Of a DNA stretch of 64,000 nt, positions 1 to 61,957 are shown one piece after another (the first letter of the stretch is position 1; every line of letters starts with the position of its first letter). The translations under genes were made by a program, and so were the position numbers. The DNA lies in assembly GCA_942159475.1 (NCBI GenBank), contig OW804097.1:3451357-3515356 (forward strand), written 5' to 3'. The notes below the pieces were generated by a model, which was given only the letters and a program-made list of their open reading frames with translations, ran no database searches and had not been told where the DNA came from. Source of the DNA: Sthenelais limicola. Its lineage: Eukaryota > Annelida > Polychaeta > Phyllodocida > Sigalionidae.

Positions 1-574
1 CTAAAATTCCTGACCCTCACGGGTCAAATAAAAATGCGCATAGTAATACATGTACGTAAATGCACCATGATGTCCCATGCAATAAATACTATTGAAGACC
101 GCAGTGTGAGGTACCAACGAGAGTAAATTTAAGAGAGTTAGAACTACGTCCCATGCTATACCCGAGCTTGTTTGGTCCTGCTGTTAACCACAGTAAGGAG
201 TCTTGGGGAGAAAATCGGGGAAAGGATCATAGAAGGCCATAAAATGCCCCAAAAACCACAAGTTCTGGCAAATTTCAACTCATTAGCCTATGGGTAATAC
301 ATAATAATAAATTTCAAATTATTCTTAAATATCAGATAGGTTATGATCAAAATGTAAACATTGTTTGATAATATTTCTGAATATAAGGCTATGTATGATA
401 CTTTGAAGCCAGATGGAGAAATAGTATCATGTCGAGAAATAAGAAATGAATATGGTAGGCCTATAAGCTGGTCATTGAATATGGTAGGCCTATAAGGTGG
501 TCATTTTTAGGCAGAATAGAATGATTTCTCTCTCGTGGAGAAAATCAAAATTGTTGCTTCTCAGACCTACCAGA

Positions 575-605
<31 letters not shown>

Positions 606-1294
606 ACACACACCCCGTATTACCTTTTCAGAAACTCGTCGTATTTTTTTGTATTTTTTTGTATTTTTTTTTTATTTTTATACGACAGTACATACAAGTT
701 CATGATCTCGCGGTCAGGCGATTTTATGACCACCTGTCTTATATAATAATTGTTCATTCAGGTGATCATTATGGGTATATGAGTGATATTCATCATTATT
801 TAACAATCAATGTAATACTATACAATGTTTAATACAATAAATTTGATTAGTCAGTCATCGTCAGAGTCCATGATTTTGTCGAGGGGCGGATGAAATTTAG
901 CGTTTTCAGGGATACCGTCATAGCCAACTAGTGGCTCTAGTATATCACTGCATTCGGGCTATAGAGGCTTGATTGATGCACGGCGATAGAAATATATATT
1001 AACAAGAAAATACTTGGAAAAATTGCTGTTAATCCTTGAGTTTCTACAGCCTTCATAATGTTTAAATGAACCATTAATATTTCCACCATTTGACTCTCGA
1101 ACAAAGGGGTGTATTCCATGTACAGTAGTAACATGTTTCTCCAACTCTACACTATATTTACCTTCGCCACAATAATTAGTTATATCATTATACACAAAGA
1201 ACATATATGGAAATATATTAACACCTATATATTCGGTATATCTAATTAAAGAAATGTTAAGTTAAGTAAGTATGCTACAACGTGGTGCAACATA
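1..1294. other. Gene-free AT-rich DNA
   Basis: No convincing coding region is seen on either strand. The short open frames here lack recognisable domains and have no conserved motif. A direct repeat of about 20 bp (GAATATGGTAGGCCTATAAG) occurs near 447 and 478. The only other structure noticed is the C/CA microsatellite at 576-613. Confidence 0.6.
576..613. repeat. poly(C) plus (CA)n microsatellite
   Basis: A run of C residues passes directly into alternating CA. Simple-sequence DNA with no function visible. Confidence 0.9.
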
Positions 1295-1295
1295 C

Positions 1296-1352
1296 TGTCC
1301 CATAATTCCATGCGAATCAAGATTCAAAATGGTGGCTATGAAATTCCCCTAT
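1296..1352 (+). mobile_element. Family C MITE, right-end fragment
   Basis: Matches the right end of the full family C copies at 22671-23009 and 41893-42241: the block with CCCATAATTCCATGCGAATC, then ATGGTGGCTATG and CCCCTATT. Only the last ~55 bp are present. Confidence 0.7.
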
Positions 1353-1594
1353 TCTTATAGGCTATCCTCTACCCTAGCAGTACATTTCTACTACCAACGA
1401 CTGGAATATTTAAAATGTCATGTTGTATTTCTCTGTCTATTATATATAATATTTATGTATTCATTTTTTGCGACTTGTGACTCATTTAACCCATTACAGG
1501 TCATACTTACTGTAACACCAAAATGATAAATTTCCACTGAAAACCCCAAGTTATGTACCTAATGCTCTATTTATGTTATAATTATGTGTTATAT

Positions 1595-1829
1595 GGGTCA
1601 GATTTTCAGAAAATGTACAATTGGCAGCTGTATACATTTAGTAAATTCTGATAAATTAAGCTGCAATTTGGTCAATACTAGGTAAATTCGAGTATATTCG
1701 GCATTGCATTGATTTCAGCAATCTGTTTGGTTAGGTTGAACTGTATTTTGAACTTTATTTTCGTCTAAAATTCGGGTTATTTGAGAAGATTGGCGAAGCT
1801 GAATTGTACATTTTCTGAAAATCTGACCC
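1595..1829 (+). mobile_element. Family B MITE, complete copy
   Basis: Terminal inverted repeats: GGGTCAGATTTTCAGAAAAT at the left and its complement ending CTGAAAATCTGACCC at the right, flanked on both sides by ATAT. Length 235 bp, non-coding. At least eleven further full or partial copies lie in this window, so it is a dispersed non-autonomous DNA element. No transposase of this family is in the window. Confidence 0.88.
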
Positions 1830-1866
1830 ATATATCAAATGAAAGGGAATTGCATTGCCTACAAAG

Positions 1867-2201
1867 GTGATGTGTTTCAGGAATATGAGTCATAAGTCAC
1901 AAAAAATAGATTTTAAGATACCACTATATTTGAAAAGATGAGATCAAGCCGATTCCAAAGATAGTAAACAGTCTAATAATCTTATAAGTATTTCTAGATT
2001 TTAAGTTTGATATTTTCGTTTTTGAAAAAAAAGCTTCCAATATTTCTGGGGGTCAATAAACAGTAAAGTAACTAAATGTAGTCCATATGAGGACCTTTAA
2101 AAGTAAAGGATATATTACATAGATATTGTCCTGGAATTTGATACCTCGATTGATAGAAGTCTAAGTGATAAACTCTCTAAAAATCAGATCATTCCATTTA
2201 T
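1867..2201 (+). mobile_element. Family A MITE, left part (interrupted by the LINE)
   Basis: Starts with the family A terminus GTGATGTGTTTCAGGA and follows the internal sequence of the complete copies (27470, 29859, 30701) until CAGATCATTCCATTTAT. The sequence expected next, ATGTAATCTTGTG, is found only at 9141, after the LINE. The two parts are therefore one MITE split by a retrotransposon insertion. Confidence 0.85.
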
Positions 2202-2992
2202 ATATATATATATAAGAATTTTTATTCAATCAATCTTTATACAGTTACAGAAAATATGAATCGGGCTTTGCGTCTATACGCAGCTGCGCATAGATCTTCC
2301 GGCTAGTCCTTAAAATAATTTGAATTAGCTAATTATCTAGTTACATCACTTGTTTCAAGAATCATTTTATATCATTTTTATACCATGAATATTTGTGAAG
2401 TTTGAACAATATTCTGTTAGTATCTTCACAGATGAAATACAGAGTCAATTTAGAGTACTACTACTTCTGGCGAGCCAGTACAGGTTGCCATCATTATATT
2501 CGTACATCATCATCCTTTCTCATTATCTACTTATTACTTCAATTCTCGCGGTTATTCATTTACTACATTTGTGGTTGACAGAATGTTAATTCGCCTTAAT
2601 GTCAGTACATGTGTCTTTTAGTTTGGTATTATACAGCCATGATACTCAATTGATATGATAATTACGCAAAGTTTGTAAATTTAGACAATTCAAGTGTACT
2701 AATCCGTCAAAATATATTTATCTAGTATCAGATAATATAATGTAAGACTTTTTAAGAAAAGTCACCCCCAACTACATGCATAAAATTCTGTACAATACAA
2801 ATGCATACAATTATATTAAAGGGCAGTTTCCTACAGTATCGATATCTCGATCTTTCAATAGTAAGGCATTACAGGCCTTGAGTTGTTGAGATTCAAGAGG
2901 TATTCGAGAATCATTTGTATTCCAGTATTACAGGTATACTGACTACTTCGTACTTGACATACAATAATTTTGTAACTGTTTACATTCAATCA

Positions 2993-5911
2993 TTAGTCAC
3001 AAGAGGTTTTTAAGTATTGATCATTGGTCAGGTAGAAATCATGTTTTAAATATCTTCGAAATTCTTTCCTGGTTTTGATCAGTTGTACTTTTGCTGGCAA
3101 GTCATTCCAAAGTTTAGGCATTCGAAACAAGTAGGAATTCCTAAAGGTTTCGTTTTTAGGGTGTGGGACTTTCATTTTCTTACCATCCGATAGGCTCCTA
3201 ATATTTAGTTTTCTTGTATCTATATAATCTTCTTTTCTCATCTTCAGAAATGTTCTGTCTAGTAAGTGATTTTCCCTTCTTGCTTTGAGGGAAGGAATTT
3301 TCAACTTATTGTGGATATCTTTTGTGCTAGTTAATTTTGGTAGGCCTAAAGTTATTTTTAGAGCCGAGTTTTGCAAACATTGTAATCTATTGAGATTATT
3401 TTGAGGTGCTGAACTATAGAAAATATCGCCATAGTCAATATGGGGCAGAATTGTAGTCTTATAAATGAGTAATAGGGTTTGTTTGGTACAAATACCATAG
3501 AGTTTTGACATTGATTTAATCTTATTTCTTATTGTATTAGTCTTCTTGACAAGGAATCTCTTAAAGTTTAATCGTCTATCTATATCTATGCCCAAATATT
3601 TGTATGACTCAACAGAGTCTAGTTTGCTTTCACCTATGGAATAACTTGCCTTATTTAGAGAAGTAGGTTTCGTGCATATGGAGACAGTCTTGCACTTGTT
3701 TATGTTGAGAGAGATTTTATTTACTCTGCACCATTCTATTATCGCATCTAAATCAACTTGTAAGTTTTCGACTCCCCGGGACACCACAGGCCTACAACCA
3801 TACAATACCGTGTCGTCGGCAAATAACTGTGCTTTATTATATTTTACTACATCTAATAAATCATTTATGTAAATAATAAAGAGAATCGGTCCTAAACAGG
3901 TACCTTGAGGGACACCACATTTGACCGTTTGTGATGAAGATAAAATTCCATTCACAGAAGTCTTTTGGGTCCTATCCTGTAAATAATTTGTAAACCATTC
4001 ATGAGGGGAACCTTTTATACCATATTTCTTCAATTTTTGTAATAAAATTTTGTGATCAACCGTGTCAAACGCCTTACGGAAGTCCAAAAATACTAAATCT
4101 GTAGCTTTCTTGTTATTTAGCCCCTCATAAACTGTTTCGAGCATCTGATCGTGGGCTTCTATTATCGATCTTCCTGATCGAAAACCGAACTGCCCGTTAT
4201 TTAGTAAATTATTAGATTCAAAATAGCCAGATAGTTGGCCTTGTATGCAACTCTCTAATATTTTTGACGGTAAAGTTATACAGGAGATTGGCCTGTAGTT
4301 CCCCGGATTCGTCCTTTCACCTTCTTTATGTAATGGAGTCACCACCGCATCTTTAAATGCAGCTGGTATTTCATTGTATTCTAGGGATAGGTTAAACAAA
4401 AAAGCGAATTGTTCACTGAGGGCCATCATACAAGGCTTTAAAATCTTTGTAGGAAGTAATTTGATCCCAGAGGCTTTGTAGTTTCCTACTCTGTGAAGAG
4501 CTAGTTCAACTGAAGCCCTGGTTATGGTTCTAAATTTAAAAGTTTGGTCGATATAGGGTATATTGTTTTCTGCTGAAGGGTCTCCTTCACCATTTAATAT
4601 ATTATTGGCTAACTTAGGGCCAATGTCTACAAAATATTTATTTATTTCATCGGCTGCCTCTTTGCCTCTCAGTAATACTCCATCACTATCTTTTATTTTG
4701 ATATCTGTGTCGCCATCTTTTGTCTTTTCGGGTGACATTAATGGTTTTAATATTTCCCATAACTTATGAGGGTCCTTCTTATTTTCTTGGATTTGTGATC
4801 TTACGTATTTATTTTTAGCTCCTCTTACTGTTTTGTTTACCAAAAATCTGGCTCCTCTTGCAGTTTCCCAATCTTCGCTTTTTCCAGTAACCTTAGCCCT
4901 CCTAAAGGCTTTATCCCTTTTCTTACTCAATTCTATGATGCTTTTGTCATACCAAACCGGTAGTTTCTTTACATTTTTAAATGTCTTCACCGGACACATC
5001 CTGTTAACGTAAGTAACAATATTATGATATAATATTTCCCATGCTCTCTCAACATTTCTTTGATTATAAAACGATTGCCAGTCTAGATCTCTCAATATTT
5101 CTTTGAGTATTTTTATATCTAGGCATTTTGTATTTCTGGCTTGGAATGTGCCATACTCATACCTATTCCTCTCTTTCTTAAGTTGGACAAATACTGGCAA
5201 ATGGTCACTAATATTTACTTCAATAGTACCACTATTGCCTATAATATTACAGTTTGTATAAACATGGTCAATTATGGAGGAAGATGATTTACTAATTCTA
5301 GTCTTAGTTTTGATCATCTGATGAAGATTGTGTGTCTGTAACATCGAGTTAAATTTCTCAGCATTTGGGGACGAGCTATCTTGCAAAATAGTTGCGTCAT
5401 AATTAAAGTCACCAAGAATTAAGATTTCTTTCGAGTGATCTAAGTTATTCAGAACTGATTCTAGTTTGTTTGTGGCTTCTTTTAATTGGCTCTGAGGTGG
5501 TCTGTAAACATTCACAATTATCTTAGATTTCATATACTTTTTTGTTATTTCAAATATTTGAAGTTCTATGCTTTTATCTGATACATTCAGATTCACATAT
5601 TCTGTTTCTTTTATGTCGTATGAAGAGTGTATATAAGTCAATAGACCTCCACCTCTTTTCTTTACCTGTCTATCTAGTCTGACTATATTGTAGTTTTTTA
5701 TATTAATTTGGTTATCAGGAGTATTCCTGCAAAGCCAAGTTTCTTGCAACGCTATTATATGTGGTTCGGTATCATGAATGAAACTTTTAAACTGGTCTAT
5801 TTTGGGTAAATAACTCCGTATGTTAAATGACACAATCTTCATCCCCTTAAGTGTTTTGAACTTGCTTACTTCAATGGCACTATCCATCATAGATGTTAAA
5901 AGTATCCCCAT
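2993..5911 (-). CDS. LINE ORF3: AP endonuclease-reverse transcriptase
   Basis: 972-residue retrotransposon replicase that nicks target DNA and reverse-transcribes the element RNA. An exonuclease-endonuclease-phosphatase (APE-type) domain spans roughly residues 24-245: MKIVSFNIRS start, catalytic Glu in QETW (57), GDFNYD (167-172), SDHLPV (235-240). A linker precedes the reverse transcriptase at about 470-750, with the fingers motif GNYRPIS, palm motif A FLDFRKAFD (608-616), GVPQG, and the catalytic FADD box (697-700). The C-terminal ~200 residues end with the LINE-typical PKLWNDLP block. No RNase H or PHD domain was recognised. Motif style fits the CR1/L2 group. Complete and uninterrupted; catalytic residues present. 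Clade placement is my reading and needs a tree. Confidence 0.93.
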   Translation of the reverse strand: MGILLTSMMDSAIEVSKFKTLKGMKIVSFNIRSYLPKIDQFKSFIHDTEPHIIALQETWLCRNTPDNQINIKNYNIVRLDRQVKKRGGGLLTYIHSSYDIKETEYVNLNVSDKSIELQIFEITKKYMKSKIIVNVYRPPQSQLKEATNKLESVLNNLDHSKEILILGDFNYDATILQDSSSPNAEKFNSMLQTHNLHQMIKTKTRISKSSSSIIDHVYTNCNIIGNSGTIEVNISDHLPVFVQLKKERNRYEYGTFQARNTKCLDIKILKEILRDLDWQSFYNQRNVERAWEILYHNIVTYVNRMCPVKTFKNVKKLPVWYDKSIIELSKKRDKAFRRAKVTGKSEDWETARGARFLVNKTVRGAKNKYVRSQIQENKKDPHKLWEILKPLMSPEKTKDGDTDIKIKDSDGVLLRGKEAADEINKYFVDIGPKLANNILNGEGDPSAENNIPYIDQTFKFRTITRASVELALHRVGNYKASGIKLLPTKILKPCMMALSEQFAFLFNLSLEYNEIPAAFKDAVVTPLHKEGERTNPGNYRPISCITLPSKILESCIQGQLSGYFESNNLLNNGQFGFRSGRSIIEAHDQMLETVYEGLNNKKATDLVFLDFRKAFDTVDHKILLQKLKKYGIKGSPHEWFTNYLQDRTQKTSVNGILSSSQTVKCGVPQGTCLGPILFIIYINDLLDVVKYNKAQLFADDTVLYGCRPVVSRGVENLQVDLDAIIEWCRVNKISLNINKCKTVSICTKPTSLNKASYSIGESKLDSVESYKYLGIDIDRRLNFKRFLVKKTNTIRNKIKSMSKLYGICTKQTLLLIYKTTILPHIDYGDIFYSSAPQNNLNRLQCLQNSALKITLGLPKLTSTKDIHNKLKIPSLKARRENHLLDRTFLKMRKEDYIDTRKLNIRSLSDGKKMKVPHPKNETFRNSYLFRMPKLWNDLPAKVQLIKTRKEFRRYLKHDFYLTNDQYLKTSCD

Positions 5912-6218
5912 TAGATTTGGGGCTAGATTTGGTGAGGAAAGTCCTTACATTAGTAAGGACAGTTTTCCACCTGTTTACATGAACATACATTTTACTACCC
6001 AAGGAACAATAACAATAATAACAGTGGTTCCCAAGGAACAAAACCAATTTAGTCTCTCTCATGCTCATTCTCGCCTAGAGTAAGAGTCTCAGCTTATGTG
6101 ATATTATTTCGTCTGAAGGATAAGATTTATCAGAACATATTATTGTAAGGAGGAAATACATACATGCATCATACTTGGAAGGGTCTGATGTACTTGAGTA
6201 GCTCTTTAGTAACTTTCT

Positions 6219-6243
6219 GTCGGGCTCCAGAAAGCGCCGGTCG
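6219..6243. repeat. 25-bp direct repeat, copy 1 (LINE spacer)
   Basis: Identical to 6582-6606. GC-rich in an AT-rich spacer. Contains GCGCCGG, partly self-complementary. Confidence 0.85.
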
Positions 6244-6581
6244 AGGTTACATAATCACAACTCATTTTTCACCATTATATAGGTTTCACTTAAATTTTTG
6301 AGAGACCTTATAACGTTTCTATAATTTTCTAAATTACCTAGAATACTCATTGTATCATATATCATCATCCAATTTCAGAAGTTTTGACAATAAGAGATAA
6401 CCTCAAATCATACCATCTTCCCATTTCAGAAGTTTTAACAATAAGAGATAATCTTCGTTTACATTCAATAATTATCTGAATACTAATATATACTAATAAT
6501 TTGATCAGTGATCAAAGTTCAATGTTCAATGTCTGTGCCAAGATATAGGTTGAGGTGAGAGTAAGAGCAAGCTTAGACACA

Positions 6582-6606
6582 GTCGGGCTCCAGAAAGCGC
6601 CGGTCG
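6582..6606. repeat. 25-bp direct repeat, copy 2 (LINE spacer)
   Basis: Exact copy of 6219-6243 located 339 bp away, just downstream of the ORF2 stop in element orientation. Confidence 0.85.
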
Positions 6607-6649
6607 TGGCAAAACCCCCTCTAAACTTAGCCCCTACCTTTTGTAATAA

Positions 6650-7372
6650 TTAGATTTTATCGTAGGTGGTGAATATTAATTTTGCGATTTTTCCCAAGAG
6701 TTCGGGGGTCATATGGCATCCGTCTGAGGCGAGTCGTGAATACATTGCTGTGTGGGTTGTTGTTTTTGTGGTCCTATGTAGTCTTCTAGATCTATTCATG
6801 TGGACCAGATTTCCGATATAAGGTGATGGTAGTCCTTGGGACTTGTTAAACTTCTTCACCACGCTGTTGAATATAACAACTTGCTTGTCGAGGAATAGTT
6901 GGTCCTCTGCGATGGAAATTAGCTTGCTCTGAGTAAGAATAGCACTCAGGTCTTCAGACTTTGTAGCTAAGTGAGTGTTATAGGCCGTCAAGTCCACCCC
7001 CATCGTTGTTCCATATATTACCATAGGATTGGGTAGATTTGGGGGGGAGAGTTCATTTATCCTTTCTACACCTTTTTGCATGGACTCTTCAATATCTGTT
7101 TCAAAAAGCATGTCATTGCTATATTTTAAGCGTACCTCCTTGGTGCTTGGGTCTTTTTGTGTTATGTTGCAGATCCCAGATAATACGAATATAACTTCTG
7201 GCCTGTCAAGTCTAATAATGCGTCTGGCCCTCTCGATGATTTGGCCTGTATCCGCGCCCCGGGCCACGAACACGTCCGAGTCAAACTCAGGTCTCTCTGA
7301 TCGGAGGTATTGTTTTAGCCCCGACCCTCTCGAGTCCGCAAGAATCAACATTGCACGTCTGGGACGATCCAT
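6650..7372 (-). CDS. LINE ORF2: SGNH/GDSL-type esterase
   Basis: 240-residue protein with the SGNH hydrolase layout. Block I is ILADSRGSG with candidate nucleophile Ser14, block III is VLSGICNIT with the Asn, and block V is DGCHMTP with candidate Asp217 and His220. Such hydrolases act on ester bonds of lipids or acetylated sugars; in CR1-like LINEs an esterase domain is known as part of the protein encoded upstream of the EN-RT. Here it is a free-standing ORF beginning 16 bp after the ORF1 stop, so the two are probably translated from one RNA by reinitiation. ATG is the first in frame and gives a complete domain. Substrate and role in transposition are unknown. Membrane association of the RNP is one published idea for LINE esterases and is only inference here. 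Confidence 0.85.
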   Translation of the reverse strand: MDRPRRAMLILADSRGSGLKQYLRSERPEFDSDVFVARGADTGQIIERARRIIRLDRPEVIFVLSGICNITQKDPSTKEVRLKYSNDMLFETDIEESMQKGVERINELSPPNLPNPMVIYGTTMGVDLTAYNTHLATKSEDLSAILTQSKLISIAEDQLFLDKQVVIFNSVVKKFNKSQGLPSPYIGNLVHMNRSRRLHRTTKTTTHTAMYSRLASDGCHMTPELLGKIAKLIFTTYDKI

Positions 7373-7388
7373 GTTTGAGATATATCAC

Positions 7389-9113
7389 TTACTTTCTGGT
7401 TTTGGAGAATTCAAGCCTTAGTTTGTCCAAGATTTTACCGAACTTGTTTTCACCAGTAAAGCTACTCACTTTCGCGGGGACGCGTCCGCCATTTGCTATT
7501 TTCACACCGCGGAGACGACGTCCGGTCCCCCATTTGGTGCATGTTGTGAGTTCATAAAATTTGGTGATGGAAGGCTCTAATAATCTCTCTCTCAATATTT
7601 TGTGTTGTTTGAATTTTTCCCGTGCTATTTTTGTCAGGGTTTCTTCTTCCACTTTTTTCCACTCCGCCATTCTGTGCGGATCAACTTCCCGTTCTAGCTT
7701 CGCGCCAATACGTTTTGCTTCTAGCGGACTCACAACACTATCAATATGCCTGGCCGAGCTTGGTTTGCCTAGGAATATCGCCTTCTGGTATTGATAGGCA
7801 TGCTCAGATGATGGAAATTTGTGATGATTAAATTCTATTTGCGCATTAAAAAAGTTTGAATAGCAGCTATTGTGTCCGTGGAACCCCACACCCCCGTCAT
7901 CGGTAGGTATTTTACAGACCTCTGCTGGCGTACACCCCTTTGGTAAAAGATGCAGATCTACATGCGTGTACGATCTAGTGCCTAGAACAATATGTCCTAG
8001 CACTAGGTCAGCTTGGTGTTTGTGGAGGCGCAGTAGTCTGTGACAATCTTTGACCATCATGAAATCATAGTCTTTGGTGTTAGGAAAATATTTATTGAAC
8101 CAAAGAGGGCAGCCAGATTTCCGTCTAATGTCCCTTGACTTGTTAAGCACGCTCTTTTTTAGCTCCGGAGAGCTTAGCTCTACATAGATTGACCGAGTCT
8201 TGCCCTTCTTTCTGATGCCAACCCTGTACGCTTGTAGAATATCATCCTTTTTCGTGGTCACTGCCATGTTTAATAGGTTTAAAATAGTGTTCATGGTATT
8301 TTCAGATACTTCATCATTAAAAGACCTTCCTGGCTCGTCCCAGGCTTCAGGGATACATTCTATTAGCAAATGGGTTGTACCGTCTGTCTTTAGAGAGGGG
8401 AGATGTTTATTTTTATCGCTCGCCATGTTGTCAATGTCGGCGCGACAAGATTTTAAGTTGGACATTACTTCATCGTACTTTCCTTTCAGCACACCTAAGC
8501 CAGTGCCAGTAGTAGTTATAGTTTGTCTAATATCTATTATGGATTTGTTTATTTCGTGTTCAAGTTCAGCAATCGTGCTAATTTTGTGGGCAGTGACTAG
8601 GTTCTCGTCAGCGGTTCTAGCAGTGTCAGTGACAGTGACATTGTCTGTGACAGCCGCTATTCCGTCTCCGCTGACATCTATCCTATCCCTCTTCACCGAG
8701 CCCTGATAACCGTTACTGTCAGGATCACTGTCAACTATAGTTTGCGTCACGTTGTCACGATGTTTGTTTTGATTCTCGTCCCTAATCTGTTCCACATCAT
8801 CATCTTGAAAGATATGATTTATCAGATTGTCTTCTAGCCTGATTATTTCTAAGTTGGATTGATTTACTTGGCTCTTTAGCGTATCATATTTATGATTGAC
8901 CCAAGCGTTATTGGTTATGAGCTTACGAGTCATCAGCTCGAAGTGCGCTTCGAGGGCTTTGACTGTGTTTTCCATATTTATGAACCTGGGATTTAGTCTA
9001 AAGAGTTTGTCAAAATCACTCCTATCAAAGACCTGCGAGACTATGTCGTCAAGAGCTAATTTTATCATATCCTCGACACCTTGTAATTCAGATAGACTCC
9101 CCTCTCCCTCCAT
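7389..9113 (-). CDS. LINE ORF1: coiled coil + RRM-like + NADAR domain
   Basis: 574-residue putative RNA-binding protein of the retrotransposon. Residues ~45-110 and ~180-240 are heptad-rich and probably form coiled coils. Residues ~245-395 resemble the RRM-like core of L1-type ORF1 proteins, including AYRVG and a following basic segment. Residues ~406-570 match the NADAR (YbiA-like) family: YSNFF, the signature FPSSEHAYQYQKA, SPLEAKRIG, W..V....L..I...KF.QH..LRE.LL, E-L and KWGTG, then a closing GKILDKLR helix. NADAR proteins bind or hydrolyse ADP-ribose conjugates, and some bacterial members remove ADP-ribose from guanine. The domain is full length with its key motif intact, so it is probably selected for. 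ATG lies ~24 bp from the element 5' end. Function in transposition is unknown. Confidence 0.87.
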   Translation of the reverse strand: MEGEGSLSELQGVEDMIKLALDDIVSQVFDRSDFDKLFRLNPRFINMENTVKALEAHFELMTRKLITNNAWVNHKYDTLKSQVNQSNLEIIRLEDNLINHIFQDDDVEQIRDENQNKHRDNVTQTIVDSDPDSNGYQGSVKRDRIDVSGDGIAAVTDNVTVTDTARTADENLVTAHKISTIAELEHEINKSIIDIRQTITTTGTGLGVLKGKYDEVMSNLKSCRADIDNMASDKNKHLPSLKTDGTTHLLIECIPEAWDEPGRSFNDEVSENTMNTILNLLNMAVTTKKDDILQAYRVGIRKKGKTRSIYVELSSPELKKSVLNKSRDIRRKSGCPLWFNKYFPNTKDYDFMMVKDCHRLLRLHKHQADLVLGHIVLGTRSYTHVDLHLLPKGCTPAEVCKIPTDDGGVGFHGHNSCYSNFFNAQIEFNHHKFPSSEHAYQYQKAIFLGKPSSARHIDSVVSPLEAKRIGAKLEREVDPHRMAEWKKVEEETLTKIAREKFKQHKILRERLLEPSITKFYELTTCTKWGTGRRLRGVKIANGGRVPAKVSSFTGENKFGKILDKLRLEFSKTRK

Positions 9114-9137
9114 AGAATTTTGGCTTGCAGATGTCGG

Positions 9138-9212
9138 TTTATGTAATCTTGTGAAAAAACACTTTGAAAAGTATCAATTTTTCGACTTATGACTCATTTT
9201 GCGGAAACACAT
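9138..9212 (+). mobile_element. Family A MITE, right part (continuation of 1867-2201)
   Basis: Begins TTTATGTAATCTTGTG and ends with the family A terminus (CGACTTATGACTCATTTTGCGG AAACACAT). Joined to 1867-2201 it gives one family A copy of normal length. Confidence 0.85.
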
Positions 9213-9296
9213 GTATATCATAACCAAGTTGAAATAAAGCAATACGGCTCATTATTTGTGGTAAAAGTCTGAGGCCCCCGTCCCTCCTCCCACTTC

Positions 9297-9645
9297 CGTT
9301 TTAGGAAAATGAGTCATAAGTCGCAAAATATGGATTTTGAGATATCACCATATTTGAAAAGATTCTGATTAGCAGATTCTAATGATAGTAAACATTAGGA
9401 CACATTATATGCATTTCTATAGTTTAAGTTTGATATTTCTATTTTTGAAAAGCAAATTTTTGCAATGTTTCTGGATTACCAGTAACGTAACTAAATATAC
9501 TCCATACGGAGGCCTTCAAAACGTAAGGATACATTTAATATAATGGTTTAAATGTGTTACATAGATGTATATTACTATAAGTGCTAAACCCCCTAAAAAG
9601 TCAGAACATTTGAATAAAGATATCCGGTAAGACAAACACTCTGTC
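9297..9645 (+). mobile_element. Family A MITE, partial copy
   Basis: Starts within the left terminus (GGAAAATGAGTCATAAGTCG) and follows family A internal sequence to about AACATTTGAATAAAGATATC. The right terminus is missing. Confidence 0.75.
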
Positions 9646-12455: not shown

Positions 12456-12562
12456 TTATAACACGCCCCTTGAACTGAGACCGGTTTTAGTTTTACCCCC
12501 TTAACCCCCTAAACTGGTGATAAATCGTGTTTCAATTAGTGTATCATATAGCGCATATCTGT

Positions 12563-12803
12563 ATATGGCTCAGATTTTTAGAAAATGTACAATTGGCAGC
12601 TGTACCCATTTAGTAAATTTTGCTAAATTAGACTGAAAAATGGTCAATACAAGGTAAATTCGAGTATATTCAGCATTGCATTGATTCTAGAAATCTGTTT
12701 GGTTAGGTTGAACTGTATTTTGAGCTTTATTTTCGTCTGAAGTTAGGGTTATTTGAGAAGATTGGTGAAGGCTAATTGTACATTTTCTGAAAATCTGACC
12801 CAT
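12563..12803 (+). mobile_element. Family B MITE, complete copy
   Basis: Both termini present (TATGGCTCAGATTTTTAGAA with two changes at the left; CTGAAAATCTGACCCAT at the right). 241 bp. Confidence 0.85.
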
Positions 12804-12920
12804 TTAGAAGGGAAACGAATCGGTAAATATTAAGAAAAGTAAAATGAACATTTGTAGAGAAAGCTTGAAGCTTTCTCATAAGTAGACTCATGTGTCGATC
12901 TCCTACTTATGTATGCCAAT

Positions 12921-24717: not shown

Positions 24718-25848
24718 ATGATTTGGATCAACACAACTAGGAATACCAGTACCAATGAATATGGACATAATGGAACTATAGACAATGTGACTTTTCCATA
24801 CGGAATCATGTTCCATGAACTAAACAACACAGAGAATTTGAATGACACAGAGACTGAAGGAACAAATGATTTTAACTATTTGCTTATGAACAGAATAGTT
24901 GCCCCGATAATAACAGCTTTTGGAACTATTGGAAATGTACTTGTTCTCCTTGTCCTCAGCAGGAAGAAATTCTCACATATGAGTGTATCTATTTACATGA
25001 GAACACTTGCTGTGGTGGACATAATTATCTTGTGGATGAATGAGAATATGATGTACATTTTTGAGGAGCTGGTAGAAGGAAGTTTATCAAGTGAAAACTG
25101 GGCGTGCAAGATGTACACATGGCTGCATCTCAGCCTCCCGTGGATAAGTTCCTGGCTTCTTGTTGCATTGAGTGTTGAAAGGTGTTTTGCAATATGTGTA
25201 CCACATAAAGCCAAGATTTGGTGCACCAAGAAGAAGGCTATTATCGTCTCCACATCAATGTGTTTGGTTTTCTTAATCTTTAACATCCATGTTATGATTA
25301 TATATAACACAACTGCTGTGGCAGGTATGTGTTCCACAAGTTTGGGGCTTTATGAAACCATTCTTGGAATAATGGTAGTAGTGATCTATTCAGTCATACC
25401 AGCCATGGTAATCTTTATTTGTAACTTTGTCATAATCTGTACTATAGTCAGAGCTTCTAGAAACAGGAATAACATCACAGGGAGGTCACAAGGGTCAAGT
25501 GATAGTACCACAATAAGTATTACCATCATGCTAATTGTAAATGGCTTTTTCTTCACTACACTCACTCTTCCATTTAATGTTTTGTTGCTCATTATTGAAT
25601 ACCAGTTAATAGACTTTGGAAATTCCACTTACCCAATCCTTTTTGCCTTATATTATGTTGCTGTCTTAAATCATGCCATCAACTTTCTGCTGTACTCCAT
25701 CAGTGGTTCTCAGTTCAGGGCTGAGTTAGTTGCAATGTTTTCATGTTGTAGAAAACCAGTAAAATCTCCTACTGTTTCACATGCCCCAACAAGGAGTCAG
25801 ATGAGTAAAGTCAGTCATATAAGTGGCACTTTTCAGTCAAAGCTTTAA
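24718..25848 (+). CDS. Class A (rhodopsin-like) GPCR, paralogue 1
   Basis: 376-residue seven-transmembrane receptor, single exon. N-terminus (~1-56) has several N-glycosylation sequons (NTT, NTS, NGT, NVT) and no signal peptide. TM1 ~57-81 with GNVLVL, TM2 ~93-116, TM3 starting after Cys130 and ending E-R-C (154-156) in place of DRY, TM4 ~171-197, Cys205 as disulphide partner, TM5 ~211-245, TM6 ~266-295 (the CWxP motif reads TLTLP), TM7 ~304-330 with NFLLY (322-326) replacing NPxxY, then CC (343-344) as possible palmitoylation site. The layout resembles invertebrate neuropeptide-receptor-like orphans, but the ligand cannot be read from sequence. AAAATGA context at the start. Roughly four fifths identical to 36263-37378, with which it forms a duplicated pair. 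Confidence 0.92.
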   Translation: MIWINTTRNTSTNEYGHNGTIDNVTFPYGIMFHELNNTENLNDTETEGTNDFNYLLMNRIVAPIITAFGTIGNVLVLLVLSRKKFSHMSVSIYMRTLAVVDIIILWMNENMMYIFEELVEGSLSSENWACKMYTWLHLSLPWISSWLLVALSVERCFAICVPHKAKIWCTKKKAIIVSTSMCLVFLIFNIHVMIIYNTTAVAGMCSTSLGLYETILGIMVVVIYSVIPAMVIFICNFVIICTIVRASRNRNNITGRSQGSSDSTTISITIMLIVNGFFFTTLTLPFNVLLLIIEYQLIDFGNSTYPILFALYYVAVLNHAINFLLYSISGSQFRAELVAMFSCCRKPVKSPTVSHAPTRSQMSKVSHISGTFQSKL

Positions 25849-29858: not shown

Positions 29859-30267
29859 TGTGATGTGTTTCCTCAAAATAAGTCATAAGTCGCAAAATTG
29901 ATATTTTTCAAAGTGTTTTTTTCAGAAGATTACATTAATGGAATGATCTGATTTTTAGAGAGTTTTTAGAGACTTATATCAATCAGTGTATCAAATTTCA
30001 GGACAATCTATGTTATATATCCTTTACTTTTAAAGCTCCTCATATGGACTACATTTAGTTACGTTACTGTTTATTGACCCCCAGAAATATTGGAAACTTT
30101 TTTTTCAAAAACGAAAATATCAAACTTAAAATCTGGAAATACTTATAAGATTAGTAGACTGTTTAGTATCATTGGAATTGGCTTGATCTCATCTTTTCAA
30201 AATATAATGGTATCTCAAAATCTATTTTTAGCAACTTATGCCTCATTTTTCTGAAACACATCACATA
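29859..30267 (-). mobile_element. Family A MITE, complete copy
   Basis: TGTGATGTGTTTCCTCAAAA and ...TTTTTCTGAAACACATCACA; TA flanks. 409 bp. Confidence 0.9.
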
Positions 30268-36262: not shown

Positions 36263-37378
36263 ATGATTTGGATTAACACAACTAGGAATACCAGTACCAA
36301 TGAATATGGACATAATGGAACTATAGACAATGTGACTTTTCCATATGGAATCATGCTCAATGAACTAAATACTTCTGTAACTGTGAATGACACAGAGACT
36401 GAAGGACCAAATGGTTTTGACTACTTGCTTATGAACAGAATACTTGCCCCGATACTAACAGCTTTTGGAACTATTGGAAATGTGCTTGTTCTCTTTGTCC
36501 TCAGCAGGAAGAAATTCTCTCATATGAGTGTATCCATTTATATGAGAACACTTGCTGTGGTGGACATACTTATCTTGTGGATAAATGAGACCATCGTAGA
36601 CATTTTTGAGGAGCTGTCAGTTCCTACATTATCAAACGACAACTGGGCCTGCCAGATACATTCATGGCTGCATCTTAGCCTCCCGTGGATAAGTTCCTGG
36701 CTTCTAGTTGCATTGAGTATTGAAAGGTGTATTGCAATATGTGTACCACATAAAGCAAAGATTTGGTGCACCAAGAAAAAGGCTATTATCGTCTCCATGT
36801 CAATGTGTTTGGTTTACTTAATCTCTAACATCCATGCTTTCGTTAAATATAACACCACCGACAAGCCAGGTTCATGTTCCACGAGTTTGGGGCTTTATGG
36901 TTTCATTCTTACAATCTTTGCTATATTGTTTTATTCAGTCATACCAGCCGTGGTGATATTCATTTGTAACTTCATAATTATCTGTGCTATAGTCAGAGCT
37001 TCAAGAAACAGGAATAACATCACAGGAAGGTCACAAGGGTCAAGTGATAGTACCACAATAAGTATTACCATCATGCTCATTGTAAATGGCTTTTTCTTCA
37101 CTATACTCACTCTTCCTGATAATGTTTTTTTCCTCATTATCGACTACAAGTTAATAGACTTTGGAAATTCCACTAAGCCCATTCTTTTTGCCTTATATTA
37201 TGTTGCTGTCTTAAATCATGTCATCAACTTTCTGTTGTACTCCATCAGTGGTTCTCAGTTCAGGGCAGAATTGGTTGCAATGTTTTCATGTTGTAGAAAG
37301 TCATCTACCACTGTATCACATGCCTCAACAAGGAGTCAGGTCAGCCAGATAAGTAGCACTTATGAGTCTAAGCACTGA
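36263..37378 (+). CDS. Class A (rhodopsin-like) GPCR, paralogue 2
   Basis: 371-residue seven-transmembrane receptor, single exon, colinear with the protein at 24718-25848 and differing mostly in the extracellular N-terminus (residues ~33-45), the first extracellular loop (VPTLSNDNWAC), the second loop (TDKPGSCSTS) and the C-tail. Those are ligand-facing or regulatory regions, while the cytoplasmic loop RASRNRNNITGRSQGSSDST is identical. Same altered motifs: ERC for DRY and NFLLY for NPxxY. The frame is intact, so both copies are probably functional. The 5' flank is the shared 21-bp minisatellite. A candidate poly(A) signal lies at 37572. Confidence 0.92.
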   Translation: MIWINTTRNTSTNEYGHNGTIDNVTFPYGIMLNELNTSVTVNDTETEGPNGFDYLLMNRILAPILTAFGTIGNVLVLFVLSRKKFSHMSVSIYMRTLAVVDILILWINETIVDIFEELSVPTLSNDNWACQIHSWLHLSLPWISSWLLVALSIERCIAICVPHKAKIWCTKKKAIIVSMSMCLVYLISNIHAFVKYNTTDKPGSCSTSLGLYGFILTIFAILFYSVIPAVVIFICNFIIICAIVRASRNRNNITGRSQGSSDSTTISITIMLIVNGFFFTILTLPDNVFFLIIDYKLIDFGNSTKPILFALYYVAVLNHVINFLLYSISGSQFRAELVAMFSCCRKSSTTVSHASTRSQVSQISSTYESKH

Positions 37379-48679: not shown

Positions 48680-51600
48680 TCAAAGTAAAGGAATTTCCTC
48701 CACAGGTTCCTCATTATTCCTGCGCATTTGCCTGGTGATGGCTGCCAGTGAGAACCTGTTGGGGAAGAGAGGGGGGAATCCACCAGGGGGCATCTCATGT
48801 CCTCTCAGTACTGCCAGGGGAACCTCAGGCAGGGCATAAGCCAATCTCTCCCAGAACCACTGACACTTCAGTTCTATATAAGTGTTGGTCCTCAGGTACA
48901 GCTTCAAGTCCTCATCAAGGTCCTCCATGTTAATATTGTCTGCCAGGATAATTATCAAGAAGTTGGTCCTGTCTTTGAGCACCTTGTGATGCGCAGCTTT
49001 GAATTCTAGAGTGCACCATTCACTATGTAGGAAGTTCCTGGTGAGTAGCATGATCATCCTTCTACTGTACTTCACACTGTTACATACATTCTCTGAGACT
49101 GAGACTGTTGGAAGGAAGTCTCGTACACCTAAACACAGTCTATACGGTTGCTCCGGTGTCTCTAGTCTATGTATGAACTCGTGTTCAACCCAAGCATCAT
49201 CCCGGCCGCTGTATGAGATGAAGACATCATAGAGCTTATCTATTACATCATCTTCCTCTCTCCTATCAAATGGATGCCAGTTAAATCTGGTGTAAAGAAA
49301 GAGTTTTATTTCTCCACGAAAACGGTACAGCATCAGAGAGATGAGCAAAATAGAAGCAAACACTGTTCCGACTGCAATTGCGATATTTGTTGATCGTGAC
49401 TCAAGACAGACTGCAATGGCATCCAGACTAATCCAACGAACTCTGTGTCTTTGGTGTTTCCCAGTTGCACAAATTACTTCCTCTATGTCCTTGACCTTGT
49501 CTGCATTGTCCTTGAGCCATTGATGGAACCATGTGTTCCAGCAGTCACATGAGTAAGGGTTGTTTCCTATGTACCATTCCTCAATATGGGCATCACTTAA
49601 GAATCTAGGCACTGTCTGTAAGGCATTGTGATCCAAATCCAATCTCTCCAATGTGAATTCTGTGTGTTTTGAAGATTGCCCTTCCAATTTAACAAGTCTA
49701 TTGTTTGACAATGAAATTATCGTTAGGTTTGACATTTCAAACAATTGTCGAAAGTCCAATGATTCTATAGCATTATTGCTCAAATCAAGTGTATGTGTTA
49801 GCCTGGGAATGTTGGATGGTAATTGATGTAGGTCACATGATGAGCAGTTGACATAGAGCAGCCCATTGACCCTCATTTTGCTACAGGAGCAAGTAACAGG
49901 ACAGGTTACATCTTTAGTGACATCACACATGAAGTCTGTAGGTTGCAATAAGGAGAGCATCTTACCTGAATGTACATATGGCTTATGACAAATCCAAGTA
50001 GAGAATTTCTGCAATGTCATACTTTCTATCATCAGATTGAAAATGTCATATGCATGGCAGTCACATTCTATCTGATTGTCTGTCAAATCCCATGTTATAT
50101 CATTAAGCATACTGGATAGTAGTTTTAATAGATTGGTATTAAAGTTATACTGAAGGTTTCTTATCTGATTCCCTTTAAGTTCAACAGAAAGCTTAAATCT
50201 AGGTAAATCATTATGCGTATATAAATTTAGCCATTCTTTCTCCAGCAAATCCATCCATGATTGGAATGTAATGTTATTATAGGATAGGTCTACATGATTC
50301 TCAACGGACAATCTAAAAAGATCACCTGGTATCTTGACCAATCCATTATAACTAGCATCAATATCTGAACCAGAAATCATCGAGGTATGACCCTCCTGAC
50401 TCTCAAAGTCCATTAGATGGAGCTCATTGTGTGATAAATCCAATTTCAGCAACTGGACATAAGATTCAAAGAAACTACTCAAATTGATTTTCTGAAGTCC
50501 ATTGTAACTGAGGTCTAGCTTGGCTAAACTGGGGAAATATCCTGCGTCAAATTTGTCCACGGCCTTTATCTTGTTATTACTTAACTTTAGGTATTTCAGT
50601 AGTGTAAGGTTTTTAAAGTTCTCTGTTCTGATTTCTGAGATTCTGTTTTTGTCCAGTTTTAACCAATACAAAGAGTTGGGCCATATTCTTTCAGGATCTA
50701 ATTGTTCTATTTTGTTGTTGCTTAGGGAGAGCACCTTCAAACTGGGAACAGTTTTTGCATTGATGAAGGTCAAATTTCTTATTTTATTATTACTGAGATA
50801 TAACACCTCTAGTTTGGATGCATTAATGAAAGTATTTGGGGAAATGACAGACACATTACAGTCTATACATGTAAATGATGTACAGTTTTGTGGGATATTT
50901 TTAATTCCAATATCCTTGAAGTTCACCGCTGTGAAGATCATGCTTCTGATGTCTGTTGTTTGAAATGAAGGAATCTCACCCGGAATTTTACTATTTCCAA
51001 TTTCCAATTGCTGAAGGGATGGCATAACATTGATTGTCTTTTGAAGATCATCCCAAGAAGAAAGTGTGCTGTCTTCAATATCTAATGCAAATAGGCTAGG
51101 CCAGGATAATCTTGTGACCTGTAAAAATCTCTGGAGTGAGTTTGGGCCAATTCCATAAACCCTTAATGTGGATACATTCAATGCTTTATGAGTGTCAGAT
51201 GTATTGCATGATAGAGGGAAAATGAATGCATTATCATTATATCTTGGTGTAAGTAAGCCATTCACAGCATCAGTGGTTAATGTTATATTTATGCTGTCCG
51301 CTTCACTTACTTTTGAAAGATGAGTGTGATTGTAAATTTGATTCACGCCTTCCCCAGCAACATGGCTACAGGGATGAAAATATAAAGTTAGAACTGTGGG
51401 TTGGAAGAAATGTATCCATTCATGAATGTTGTAATAGTCAATGTAGTGGAGAGCATTAAGGATAATCATTGTAACGTGTCGGAACTTGTGACGAAGATCT
51501 GGTTCATAGATTGGCAGAAAAATAATCCTACTTAAGTTACCAATTGCAAATAATTCCAAATTGATAAATCCATATGATTCCTTTTGAGCAGATGGTAACA

Positions 51601-51865
51601 GTTGGTGTATATCCAACAAGCAGGAGCCATTTGTCTGAAGTGTTGGATCCATCACATATACATTACCAGTATTAGAGTAGTATTTACAAATGTAACTCTC
51701 TCTTGAGTTGTGCTTCAAGTTCCACTCTGATTCCTCGTCCATGAATACAACTGTACAATATGGTAAAGTGTTCTTCTCCTCATTTCCTATCACCAGTGGA
51801 AAGTACAGAAGAATATGTAGGAACATAACAACATGACAGATTCTGAGCTTATCTTCCCCTTCCAT
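48680..51865 (-). CDS. Toll-like receptor (multiple-cysteine-cluster type)
   Basis: 1061-residue single-exon innate immune receptor. Signal peptide ~1-27. Glycosylated ectodomain with poorly conserved LRRs at ~100-340 and clear LxxLxLxxN repeats ~350-540. First LRRCT at 601-648 (CDCHAYD), then an internal LRRNT (CPVTCSC, ~655-683), two or three LRRs, and a second LRRCT at 773-822 (CDCWNTW). Transmembrane helix ~827-849. Cytoplasmic TIR ~878-1010: box 1 YDVFISYSGRD, box 2 LCLGVRDFLPTVS, box 3 FW (1004-1005). Two cysteine clusters make it Toll-like (mcc) rather than the vertebrate single-cluster type. In box 2 the usual RDxxPG reads RDFLPT, so the Gly is replaced. Start ATG has a strong context (GAGATGG). 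It should recruit MyD88-type adaptors to NF-kB signalling. The G-rich tract follows its stop codon. Confidence 0.95.
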   Translation of the reverse strand: MEGEDKLRICHVVMFLHILLYFPLVIGNEEKNTLPYCTVVFMDEESEWNLKHNSRESYICKYYSNTGNVYVMDPTLQTNGSCLLDIHQLLPSAQKESYGFINLELFAIGNLSRIIFLPIYEPDLRHKFRHVTMIILNALHYIDYYNIHEWIHFFQPTVLTLYFHPCSHVAGEGVNQIYNHTHLSKVSEADSINITLTTDAVNGLLTPRYNDNAFIFPLSCNTSDTHKALNVSTLRVYGIGPNSLQRFLQVTRLSWPSLFALDIEDSTLSSWDDLQKTINVMPSLQQLEIGNSKIPGEIPSFQTTDIRSMIFTAVNFKDIGIKNIPQNCTSFTCIDCNVSVISPNTFINASKLEVLYLSNNKIRNLTFINAKTVPSLKVLSLSNNKIEQLDPERIWPNSLYWLKLDKNRISEIRTENFKNLTLLKYLKLSNNKIKAVDKFDAGYFPSLAKLDLSYNGLQKINLSSFFESYVQLLKLDLSHNELHLMDFESQEGHTSMISGSDIDASYNGLVKIPGDLFRLSVENHVDLSYNNITFQSWMDLLEKEWLNLYTHNDLPRFKLSVELKGNQIRNLQYNFNTNLLKLLSSMLNDITWDLTDNQIECDCHAYDIFNLMIESMTLQKFSTWICHKPYVHSGKMLSLLQPTDFMCDVTKDVTCPVTCSCSKMRVNGLLYVNCSSCDLHQLPSNIPRLTHTLDLSNNAIESLDFRQLFEMSNLTIISLSNNRLVKLEGQSSKHTEFTLERLDLDHNALQTVPRFLSDAHIEEWYIGNNPYSCDCWNTWFHQWLKDNADKVKDIEEVICATGKHQRHRVRWISLDAIAVCLESRSTNIAIAVGTVFASILLISLMLYRFRGEIKLFLYTRFNWHPFDRREEDDVIDKLYDVFISYSGRDDAWVEHEFIHRLETPEQPYRLCLGVRDFLPTVSVSENVCNSVKYSRRMIMLLTRNFLHSEWCTLEFKAAHHKVLKDRTNFLIIILADNINMEDLDEDLKLYLRTNTYIELKCQWFWERLAYALPEVPLAVLRGHEMPPGGFPPLFPNRFSLAAITRQMRRNNEEPVEEIPLL

Positions 51866-61470: not shown

Positions 61471-61957
61471 TGTGATGTGTCACAGAAAATTTCACAAAAT
61501 AAGTCGCAAAATTGATACTTTTCAAAGTGGTTAATTCACACAATCTCTTTGTAGGAATTTTTTTTAGCTGTATCTGTATTAAATCTCAAGACAGTGTATT
61601 AAATATATCTTTGCATTTCTAAGATCATATTGAGTATATTTAGCTACTTTGCTAGTAATTGTCCAGAATTGAAAACTTATTCTTTTCAAACATAAACAAA
61701 TTCAAACAAAAGCCAGTTGGAGAAATCTTAATATCCGATTTATATCACCGTACCATAGTTTAATGATTACACAATTAATACAATTCAACACTTTACTAGT
61801 AAATGTCAGGCCACAAATATTGCAAATATTTCTTATTAAAATATCAAACTTAAAATATAGAAATACCTATTAGATCCTACTGTTTACAGTGCACCATCAG
61901 TAGAATCAGCTTGATCTCTTTTCAAAATATAGGATGATATCTCAAAATCCATTATTT
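61471..61957 (-). mobile_element. Family A MITE, diverged, overlapping the lyase 3' end
   Basis: Left terminus TGTGATGTGTCACAGAAAAT, right side CAAAATCCATTATTTACA where the outer terminus is cut off by the lyase coding sequence. Contains ~70 bp of extra sequence at ~61720-61790. Confidence 0.72.

Follow-up and report, generated by a model that had tools for sequence, protein, structure and literature searches.

The window analysed here, a 64,000-nucleotide stretch of the genome of the annelid Sthenelais limicola (contig OW804097.1, positions 3,451,357 to 3,515,356 of the forward strand), contains on its minus strand a long interspersed nuclear element (LINE) whose first open reading frame (ORF1) encodes a protein that ends in a NADAR domain. 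The insertion, which is 5'-truncated, is ~6.93 kb long (2205..9137); at its lower-numbered end, it carries a 3' tail made up of an AT microsatellite. Between positions 2993 and 9113, it holds three ORFs on the minus strand, in the order ORF1 (7389-9113, 574 amino acids (aa) from ATG to stop), an SGNH-like ORF of 240 aa (6650..7372) and ORF2 (2993..5911, 972 aa). The observations reported here support the conclusion that NADAR is a genuine, recurrent and strongly selected module of LINE ORF1.

The boundaries of the element were established from an empty site and a second insertion. The sequences flanking the insertion, which end at 2204 and resume at 9138, adjoin with an 8-base overlap on an unoccupied paralogous copy of a repeat (30129..29863, minus strand, ~90% identical). 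This overlap defines a target-site duplication (~8 bp), the left copy of which, TTTATATA (2197..2204), and the right copy, TTTATGTA (9138..9145), differ at one position, the exact limits being blurred by a TA repeat. The second insertion, designated L210 and found in the same genome, aligns gap-free with window positions 2203-9138 (6936 bases, 99.87% identity); thus, a recent transposition carried NADAR along with the SGNH-like ORF and ORF2. The empty repeat copy and the near-identical second insertion bear out the statement of the preliminary description, which was made from the letters of this DNA, that the element has clear boundaries. All the features of an APE-type (non-long terminal repeat) LINE are present, namely, an ORF2 with endonuclease and reverse transcriptase (RT), a target-site duplication, a 3' tail and 5' truncation. 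The possibility that NADAR belongs to a host gene lying beside a LINE was considered and is ruled out, given the empty site and the presence of the same three ORFs in the second insertion. The repeat that harbours the insertion belongs to a dispersed family with many copies in both orientations (1590-1834, 9294-9451, 12562-12806, 29863-30129 and others), one of which is the empty site.

ORF1, delineated from the ORF list and profile searches, consists of an N-terminal region (aa 1-240), an RRM-like and C-terminal domain (CTD)-like part (aa 245-403; 7905..8381, minus strand), recognised by homology to the database protein P0002, and NADAR, which from the Pfam match and residue mapping occupies about aa 405-573 (7395..7901, minus strand). 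The Pfam profile PF08719 (NADAR) matches aa 414-568 (E = 3.3e-19, profile positions 9-161 of 163), that is, nearly the whole domain, with a score of 70.2 bits compared to the curated cut-off of 35.1 bits. The profile search that had been proposed as a check on the NADAR region is therefore significant and, together with the transposition of the element as a single unit, confirms the claim of a NADAR domain inside a LINE ORF1. In a sequence search of the PDB, the closest solved structure is Escherichia coli YbiA (2b3w, 1e-8), and the Phytophthora NADAR 8bau is matched at 0.3 only. All four motifs listed in the preliminary description are present, but their real order is YSNFF (position 418), FPSSEHAYQYQKA (433), SPLEAKRIG (462) and KWGTG (527), with YSNFF coming first.

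Other parts of the earlier view of ORF1 have to be modified. For the coiled coil, the window protein gives no significant profile match. For the RRM-like region, a ten-member profile finds the RRM of L1 ORF1p (2w7a) as the best of 177,635 PDB sequences, which points weakly in the expected direction, but the match is not significant (E = 0.14), and in Pfam ORF1 matches neither RRM nor PF02994. The frame had also been called intact, and it does run from ATG to stop; however, in two near-identical copies elsewhere in the genome, the open frame comprises 698 codons, compared to 594 in the window copy (stop to stop), and includes a candidate start, MEPTVEH..., ~80 residues upstream of the beginning of the window insertion. 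L210, too, is longer than the window copy at the 5' end, and its ORF1 frame continues upstream. Because the frame runs on in the longer copies, Met1 of the window ORF1 is an internal methionine of a longer protein, and the window copy is 5'-truncated within ORF1, without ~80 N-terminal aa.

The SGNH-like ORF starts 16 nt after the ORF1 stop and carries DSRG and DGxH motifs. The window copy has no Pfam match and no significant PDB match; of ten homologues, one matches PF13472 at 0.006, below the cut-off. In an alignment of 10 sequences, columns S14, G39, D217 and H220 are invariant, and in block III, GIC precedes D, N or E, with Asn not evident in its usual place. A spacer with short internal repeats (5912..6649, minus strand) separates this ORF from ORF2; direct repeats within it lie at 6219-6246 and 6582-6609 (28 nt, 96%) and at 6359-6403 and 6410-6454 (45 nt, 89%). 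ORF2 encodes an APE-type endonuclease and RT, as judged from its Pfam matches (RVT_1, 1.8e-37; Exo_endo_phos_2, 2.2e-17; Exo_endo_phos, 8.9e-8), and its closest solved structures are L1 ORF2p and R2. Judging from its RT motifs, its length and a C-terminal WNxLP region, ORF2 may belong to the CR1/L2/Jockey superfamily.

Elements with this architecture recur throughout the genome (1.13 Gb in 161 contigs were searched); the genome-wide NADAR copy counts are lower bounds, and tallies of best matches favour intact copies. The Pfam NADAR profile gave 5561 first-look candidates, the best 150 of which were scored; all 150 exceeded the cut-off, and only 2 had a stop inside the match. With the window ORF1 as the query, there were 5059 candidates; the best 76 were scored, all with E <1e-100 and 58 without a stop. 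Two motif patterns, each of which fits only some subfamilies, yielded 17 and 133 matches (the first 100 of the latter were listed), compared to 0 for the reversed control in each case. Among 20 loci fetched around high-scoring NADAR matches, ORF1-like proteins were found in all 20, as expected from the selection (the two weakest at 1.6e-6 and 0.001). ORF2-like proteins, which were not a selection criterion, were likewise found in 20 of the 20, so that the genome-wide search for other LINEs with the fusion, suggested in the preliminary description, detects the ORF1-ORF2 pairing throughout; an SGNH-like homologue was present in 12. When ORF2 was taken as the starting point, a listed NADAR ORF1 was located 1.4-3.3 kb upstream on the same strand in 24 of the 47 scored copies. 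For 10 of the remaining 23, a 1.1-kb stretch each was inspected: sequence from a NADAR ORF1 was present in four (in one, the limit of the stretch left just the end of it), one contained only an inverted SGNH-like piece, and in five, nothing was found. For one further ORF2 copy (C2:1185823), a NADAR motif match lies ~1.8 kb upstream. The simplest cause of the missing upstream NADAR is 5' truncation; a NADAR-free relative may also be present among these copies.

In a wider protein database, the query P0001 recovered a single fusion homologue, P0002 (488 aa, on a 1859-bp contig), which is homologous (29% identity) across both NADAR and the RRM-like part. In the same database, the NADAR region alone as the query recovered no fusion homologue, and a two-row profile recovered P0002 and, in addition, two proteins whose matches covered 26-28% of the query. 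Among viral contigs, no relatives were found with P0001, P0002 or the RT part as queries. A search with a NADAR-only alignment retrieved 306 viral and 139 prokaryotic NADARs; 80 of each were kept as references, and 155 of these 160 were used, the 5 with stops being dropped. A 300-aa metagenomic NADAR protein, P0004, which has basic flanks, is named ribA/ribD-fused by its source.

Active-site residues were mapped against the 155 prokaryotic and viral NADARs (chosen with a motif in which E48 and the residues next to it are fixed), YbiA and 8bau. The window ORF1 keeps E437 (YbiA E48), K444 (K55), W485 (W89), E521 (E125), W528 (W133), N556, G559 and R566, with substitutions at two positions, E489 at YbiA K93 and C525 at YbiA D130. 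E521 is the glutamate at the last-strand catalytic position (E125) that, in place of Asp or His, marks the YbiA subfamily. Among 42 genome NADARs, a count that includes near-identical copies and the L211 domain described below and leaves out P0004, which was misaligned, E48, W89, K104, W133, N143 and G146 are invariant; E125 is present in 41 (one has Asp), R153 in 41, and K or R at position 55 in 40. In the structure, as described in excerpts of PMC11543638, two glutamates coordinate the distal ribose, a lysine coordinates the phosphates, and D130 contacts the phosphates via water; Arg in place of that lysine retains hydrolysis in vitro, and guanine-ADP-ribose is hydrolysed by bacterial and oomycete NADARs. 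Given a significant profile match, the retention of most active-site residues and the occurrence of the fusion in more than a single copy, none of the three grounds on which the preliminary description would have abandoned its proposal (no match, lost residues, a chance fusion in one copy) holds.

Selection was assessed from pairwise Nei-Gojobori dN/dS with bootstrap 95% intervals, one pair per lineage, the main pair being the window family and another whose ORF1 is 81% identical (L191/L209, one locus). For this pair, dN/dS is 0.048 for NADAR (168 codons; 0.020-0.091), 0.145 for the RRM-like part (0.059-0.317, an interval that overlaps that of NADAR), 0.080 for the CTD-like part and 0.361 for the N-terminal region (0.241-0.522); the SGNH-like ORF gave 0.112, the endonuclease 0.087 and the RT, in which ~36 codons were counted doubly, 0.036. 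Thus, NADAR is held about as tightly as the RT and clearly more tightly than the N-terminal region. In a second lineage pair (L182/L185), the values are 0.060 for NADAR and 0.071 for ORF2, so that the dN/dS measurement called for in the preliminary description indicates strong purifying selection on NADAR. Relative to the distant homologue P0002, NADAR and the RRM-like part are conserved to the same degree (53/154 vs 30/94 identical). The ORF2 tree, in which the window element falls among the other NADAR LINEs of the genome and one CCHC-type LINE is the outgroup, contains three groups with support of 100 each (L171/L176/L177/L180, L172/L173/L186 and L175/L182-L185/L188), deeper nodes being supported at 71-83. 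These three groups reappear in the NADAR tree (100, 100 and 98), an agreement that speaks for long co-inheritance of NADAR with ORF2. In the NADAR tree, which includes 52 of the 155 prokaryotic and viral NADARs, sampled by similarity, the retroelement NADARs, P0002 and 8bau are set apart from bacterial and viral NADARs (98-99), with the long branches of 8bau and L211 being placed unreliably.

Two further loci carry NADARs in other contexts. On the reverse complement of L211 (138-1811; also in L170, which it overlaps), an ORF1-like frame with a divergent, 8bau-like NADAR precedes an endonuclease frame. The 334-aa frame matches NADAR at 8.8e-18, the nearest structure being 8bau (9.2e-13); Gln occupies the YbiA K55 position, and E48, E125, D130 and W133 are kept. 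The endonuclease frame (223 aa) directly follows the NADAR frame, with no RT following in that frame, and has no detectable similarity to the window ORF2. Its nearest structures are L1 endonucleases (5.5e-9), a match that does not discriminate between LINE types, as is true of the best PDB match of the window ORF2 to L1; from its motifs, we take this endonuclease to be L1/Tx1-like. At L222 (C4:129381700-129385200, 1-3501; also L223), a single 683-aa frame combines NADAR (1.2e-23) with an SGNH domain and is followed by an RT frame (RVT_1, 6.7e-10) that, judging from its motifs, is presumably Penelope-like. The SGNH domain matches PF13472 at 2.1e-5, below the cut-off, and shows GDSN, GIND and DxVH motifs; in the PDB, it matches 4c1b, an 'ORF1-encoded protein' (E 0.2), which we take to be a retrotransposon esterase. 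The L222 NADAR has His at position 125, a residue that, according to excerpts of PMC11125620, phage gp30.3 NADARs also have. Among the 100 of 133 matches listed, the L222 motif repeats every about 5.7-6.0 kb, as in tandem arrays, at C1:14.26M, C3:1.93M, C3:16.76M and C4:129.38M.

The three NADAR subtypes in apparently three kinds of retroelements we read, from their sequences, as separate captures. A broader proposal, which is conceivable although somewhat unlikely, is that NADAR roams among retroelements as a cassette that erases ADP-ribose, in many cases accompanied by an SGNH hydrolase; in this one genome, the YbiA-like Glu type is found in window-type LINEs, the 8bau-like type before an L1/Tx1-like endonuclease, and the His type fused to SGNH in a Penelope-like unit. 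If that were the case, invertebrate hosts would restrict retroelements by ADP-ribosylating nucleic acids or by means of NAD-derived signals, and the erasers would have been captured repeatedly.

The preliminary description professed no knowledge of NADAR as a standard LINE module. This has to be corrected because NADAR was already reported in ORF1 of several Crassostrea gigas Tx1 LINE families and, in one Gypsy lineage of Ectocarpus, in Pol (PMC12477816, 2025); the likeness to the window element consists in the presence of NADAR in retrotransposon proteins, LINE ORF1 included. Among the matches listed in searches of the open-access literature, no further report on NADAR in LINEs appeared. In the available excerpts, the paper devotes one sentence to LINE NADARs and gives no selection or active-site analysis, whereas selection, linkage and residues were measured here for window-type LINEs. 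The oyster LINEs are called Tx1, whereas the window element has an ORF2 of 972 aa (human L1 ORF2p, 1274-1275 aa), NADAR after an RRM-like region and then a separate SGNH-like ORF. The probable order of parts before NADAR resembles that of Type II LINE ORF1 (coiled coil-RRM-CTD; PMC4120745), which occurs in the CR1 and L2 lineages and for which domain shuffling is documented; however, the Type II domains named in excerpts of that source are CCHC, PHD, esterase, RRM, CTD and zinc-finger/leucine-zipper, not NADAR, and the window ORF1 is without a PF02994 match. According to excerpts of PMC3905857 and PMC5408684, SGNH/GDSL esterase ORFs are found in LINEs, Penelope-like elements and long terminal repeat elements and are common to different retroelement classes; here, in contrast, SGNH accompanies NADAR, as a separate ORF in LINEs and fused in the Penelope-like unit, and the LINE versions are without an evident block III Asn. 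The window domain shares with YbiA and the DarT1-associated NADAR antitoxins (excerpts of PMC11543638 and PMC11125620) the profile family, the ribose-lining glutamates and K55, but there is no DarT among the ORFs of the element, NADAR is fused to a LINE ORF1 protein, and D130 is replaced in the window lineage. NADARs of invertebrate RNA viruses have been argued to target host ADP-ribosylation (excerpts of PMC9503650); there as here, NADAR is part of an RNA-based replicator for which counter-defence is proposed, the difference being that the viral domains belong to polyproteins and the present one to an integrated retrotransposon protein.

The preservation of NADAR by selection suggests that the elements use the domain, perhaps to undo host defence. 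The account that we tentatively adopt, at somewhat less than an even chance, is that the ORF1 protein (ORF1p) is an RNA-packaging protein whose C-terminal NADAR would serve as a ribonucleoprotein (RNP)-borne ADP-ribosyl hydrolase protecting the copy cycle from host ADP-ribosyltransferases. By analogy with L1 ORF1p, the RRM-like part would bind element RNA, so that NADAR would travel with the RNP. The domain would act as an ADP-ribosyl or N-ribosyl hydrolase on ADP-ribose attached to guanines, or on related adducts, of element RNA or nascent cDNA, or alternatively would degrade ADP-ribose-type defence molecules; either way, the element may gain protection of its copy cycle from the host enzymes.

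Several observations weigh against this account. The chief point against textbook activity of the window copy is that its lineage has lost D130: the aspartate associated with YbiA-type activity is replaced by C525 in the window ORF1, and the same position is Cys (11) or Ser (10) in 21 of the 21 window-lineage copies and Asp in the other 21; across the 155 prokaryotic and viral NADARs, it is D in 135 and N in 20. The K93 position is Glu or Ala in all 21 window-lineage copies. In the study of the nematode protein SNA-3, a D and a W homologous to residues on which YbiA activity critically depends were mutated (excerpts of PMC9303266); the D-x-x-W spacing would equate SNA-3 D343 with YbiA D130. 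The three ORFs of at least 200 aa in the element (ORF1, SGNH-like and endonuclease-RT) include no ADP-ribosyltransferase, and we know of no host ADP-ribosylation defence against LINEs. Furthermore, recent copies show little or no constraint, on very few changes (L195/L197, 0.70; L195/L198, 0.98), and most other pairs are dS-saturated or too close (the L184/L188 NADAR is saturated, dN 0.058). With Cys or Ser in place of Asp130, the NADAR of the window branch is likely to differ in specificity or to have a lower turnover.

The replacement of D and K/R at the ADP-ribose-phosphate positions by C525 and E489, and the occurrence of only Cys or Ser at the D130 position in 21 copies, as in changed function and not decay, would also fit a window-lineage NADAR that acts as a non-catalytic binding module for ADP-ribose, poly(ADP-ribose) chains or RNA, recruiting the RNP to PARP sites or aiding integration. 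Pure binding, however, need not depend on the distal-ribose glutamates, which are kept (E48 in 42/42, E125 in 41/42), and the other 21 genome copies retain D130; we therefore regard such a module as a serious candidate but, on balance, an unlikely one. Slightly less probable still is RNA processing in place of counter-defence, with NADAR acting as an N-glycosidase or decapping-type enzyme on element RNA or nucleotide intermediates (NAD-capped ends, damaged purines). YbiA-type NADARs are described as N-glycosidases and SNA-3 is implicated in trans-splicing (excerpts of PMC9303266), and for the Gypsy and Tx1 NADARs, a role in the processing of the RNA intermediate was proposed (excerpts of PMC12477816). 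The residues kept in the genome NADARs fit this function, too.

When a LINE integrates, nicked DNA at which PARPs act is exposed, and NADAR might guard target-primed reverse transcription against self-poisoning or genotoxic stress, through repair of ADP-ribosylated DNA ends at the nicked target, rather than counter immunity. Given that ORF1p is found mainly on RNA and that we know of no evidence of animal PARPs modifying guanine at such nicks, this appears improbable. NADARs do, however, reverse guanine ADP-ribosylation in single-stranded DNA (excerpts of PMC11543638). Least credible of all is a chance or passenger fusion without function: it would accommodate the sub-optimal residues and the few very recent copies without visible constraint, but the between-family dN/dS of 0.048, the ORF1-ORF2 pairing in all fetched loci, the homology of P0002 across the RRM-like part and NADAR, and the co-inheritance with ORF2 all argue against it. 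Chance fusion is rejected by the 20/20 ORF2 linkage, the conserved residues and dN/dS.

What had been a single sentence about Tx1 elements of the oyster is extended by these results to a LINE group that has been amplified and has transposed recently, and within its elements, NADAR is one of the parts under the strongest constraint. If catalysis were shown, it would suggest that animals use ADP-ribosylation against retrotransposons, a weapon that has hitherto been known mainly from phage and virus conflicts. The system is tractable, with a small domain, established guanine-ADP-ribose assays (excerpts of PMC11543638) and naturally occurring variants, some of which have D130 and some of which do not.

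Elsewhere in the window, two similar single-frame receptor-like ORFs of 376 and 371 aa are located at 24718-25848 and 36263-37378. By appearance, we take this pair to be a duplicated GPCR. On the minus strand, an ORF of 1061 aa (48680-51865) that combines leucine-rich repeats with a TIR-like end, and is presumably Toll-like, is adjoined by a long Gly/Glu repeat at 47.6-48.7 kb. A 478-aa ORF on the same strand (61942-63378) resembles, as far as we can judge from its appearance, tryptophanase or tyrosine phenol-lyase and is perhaps of bacterial origin.

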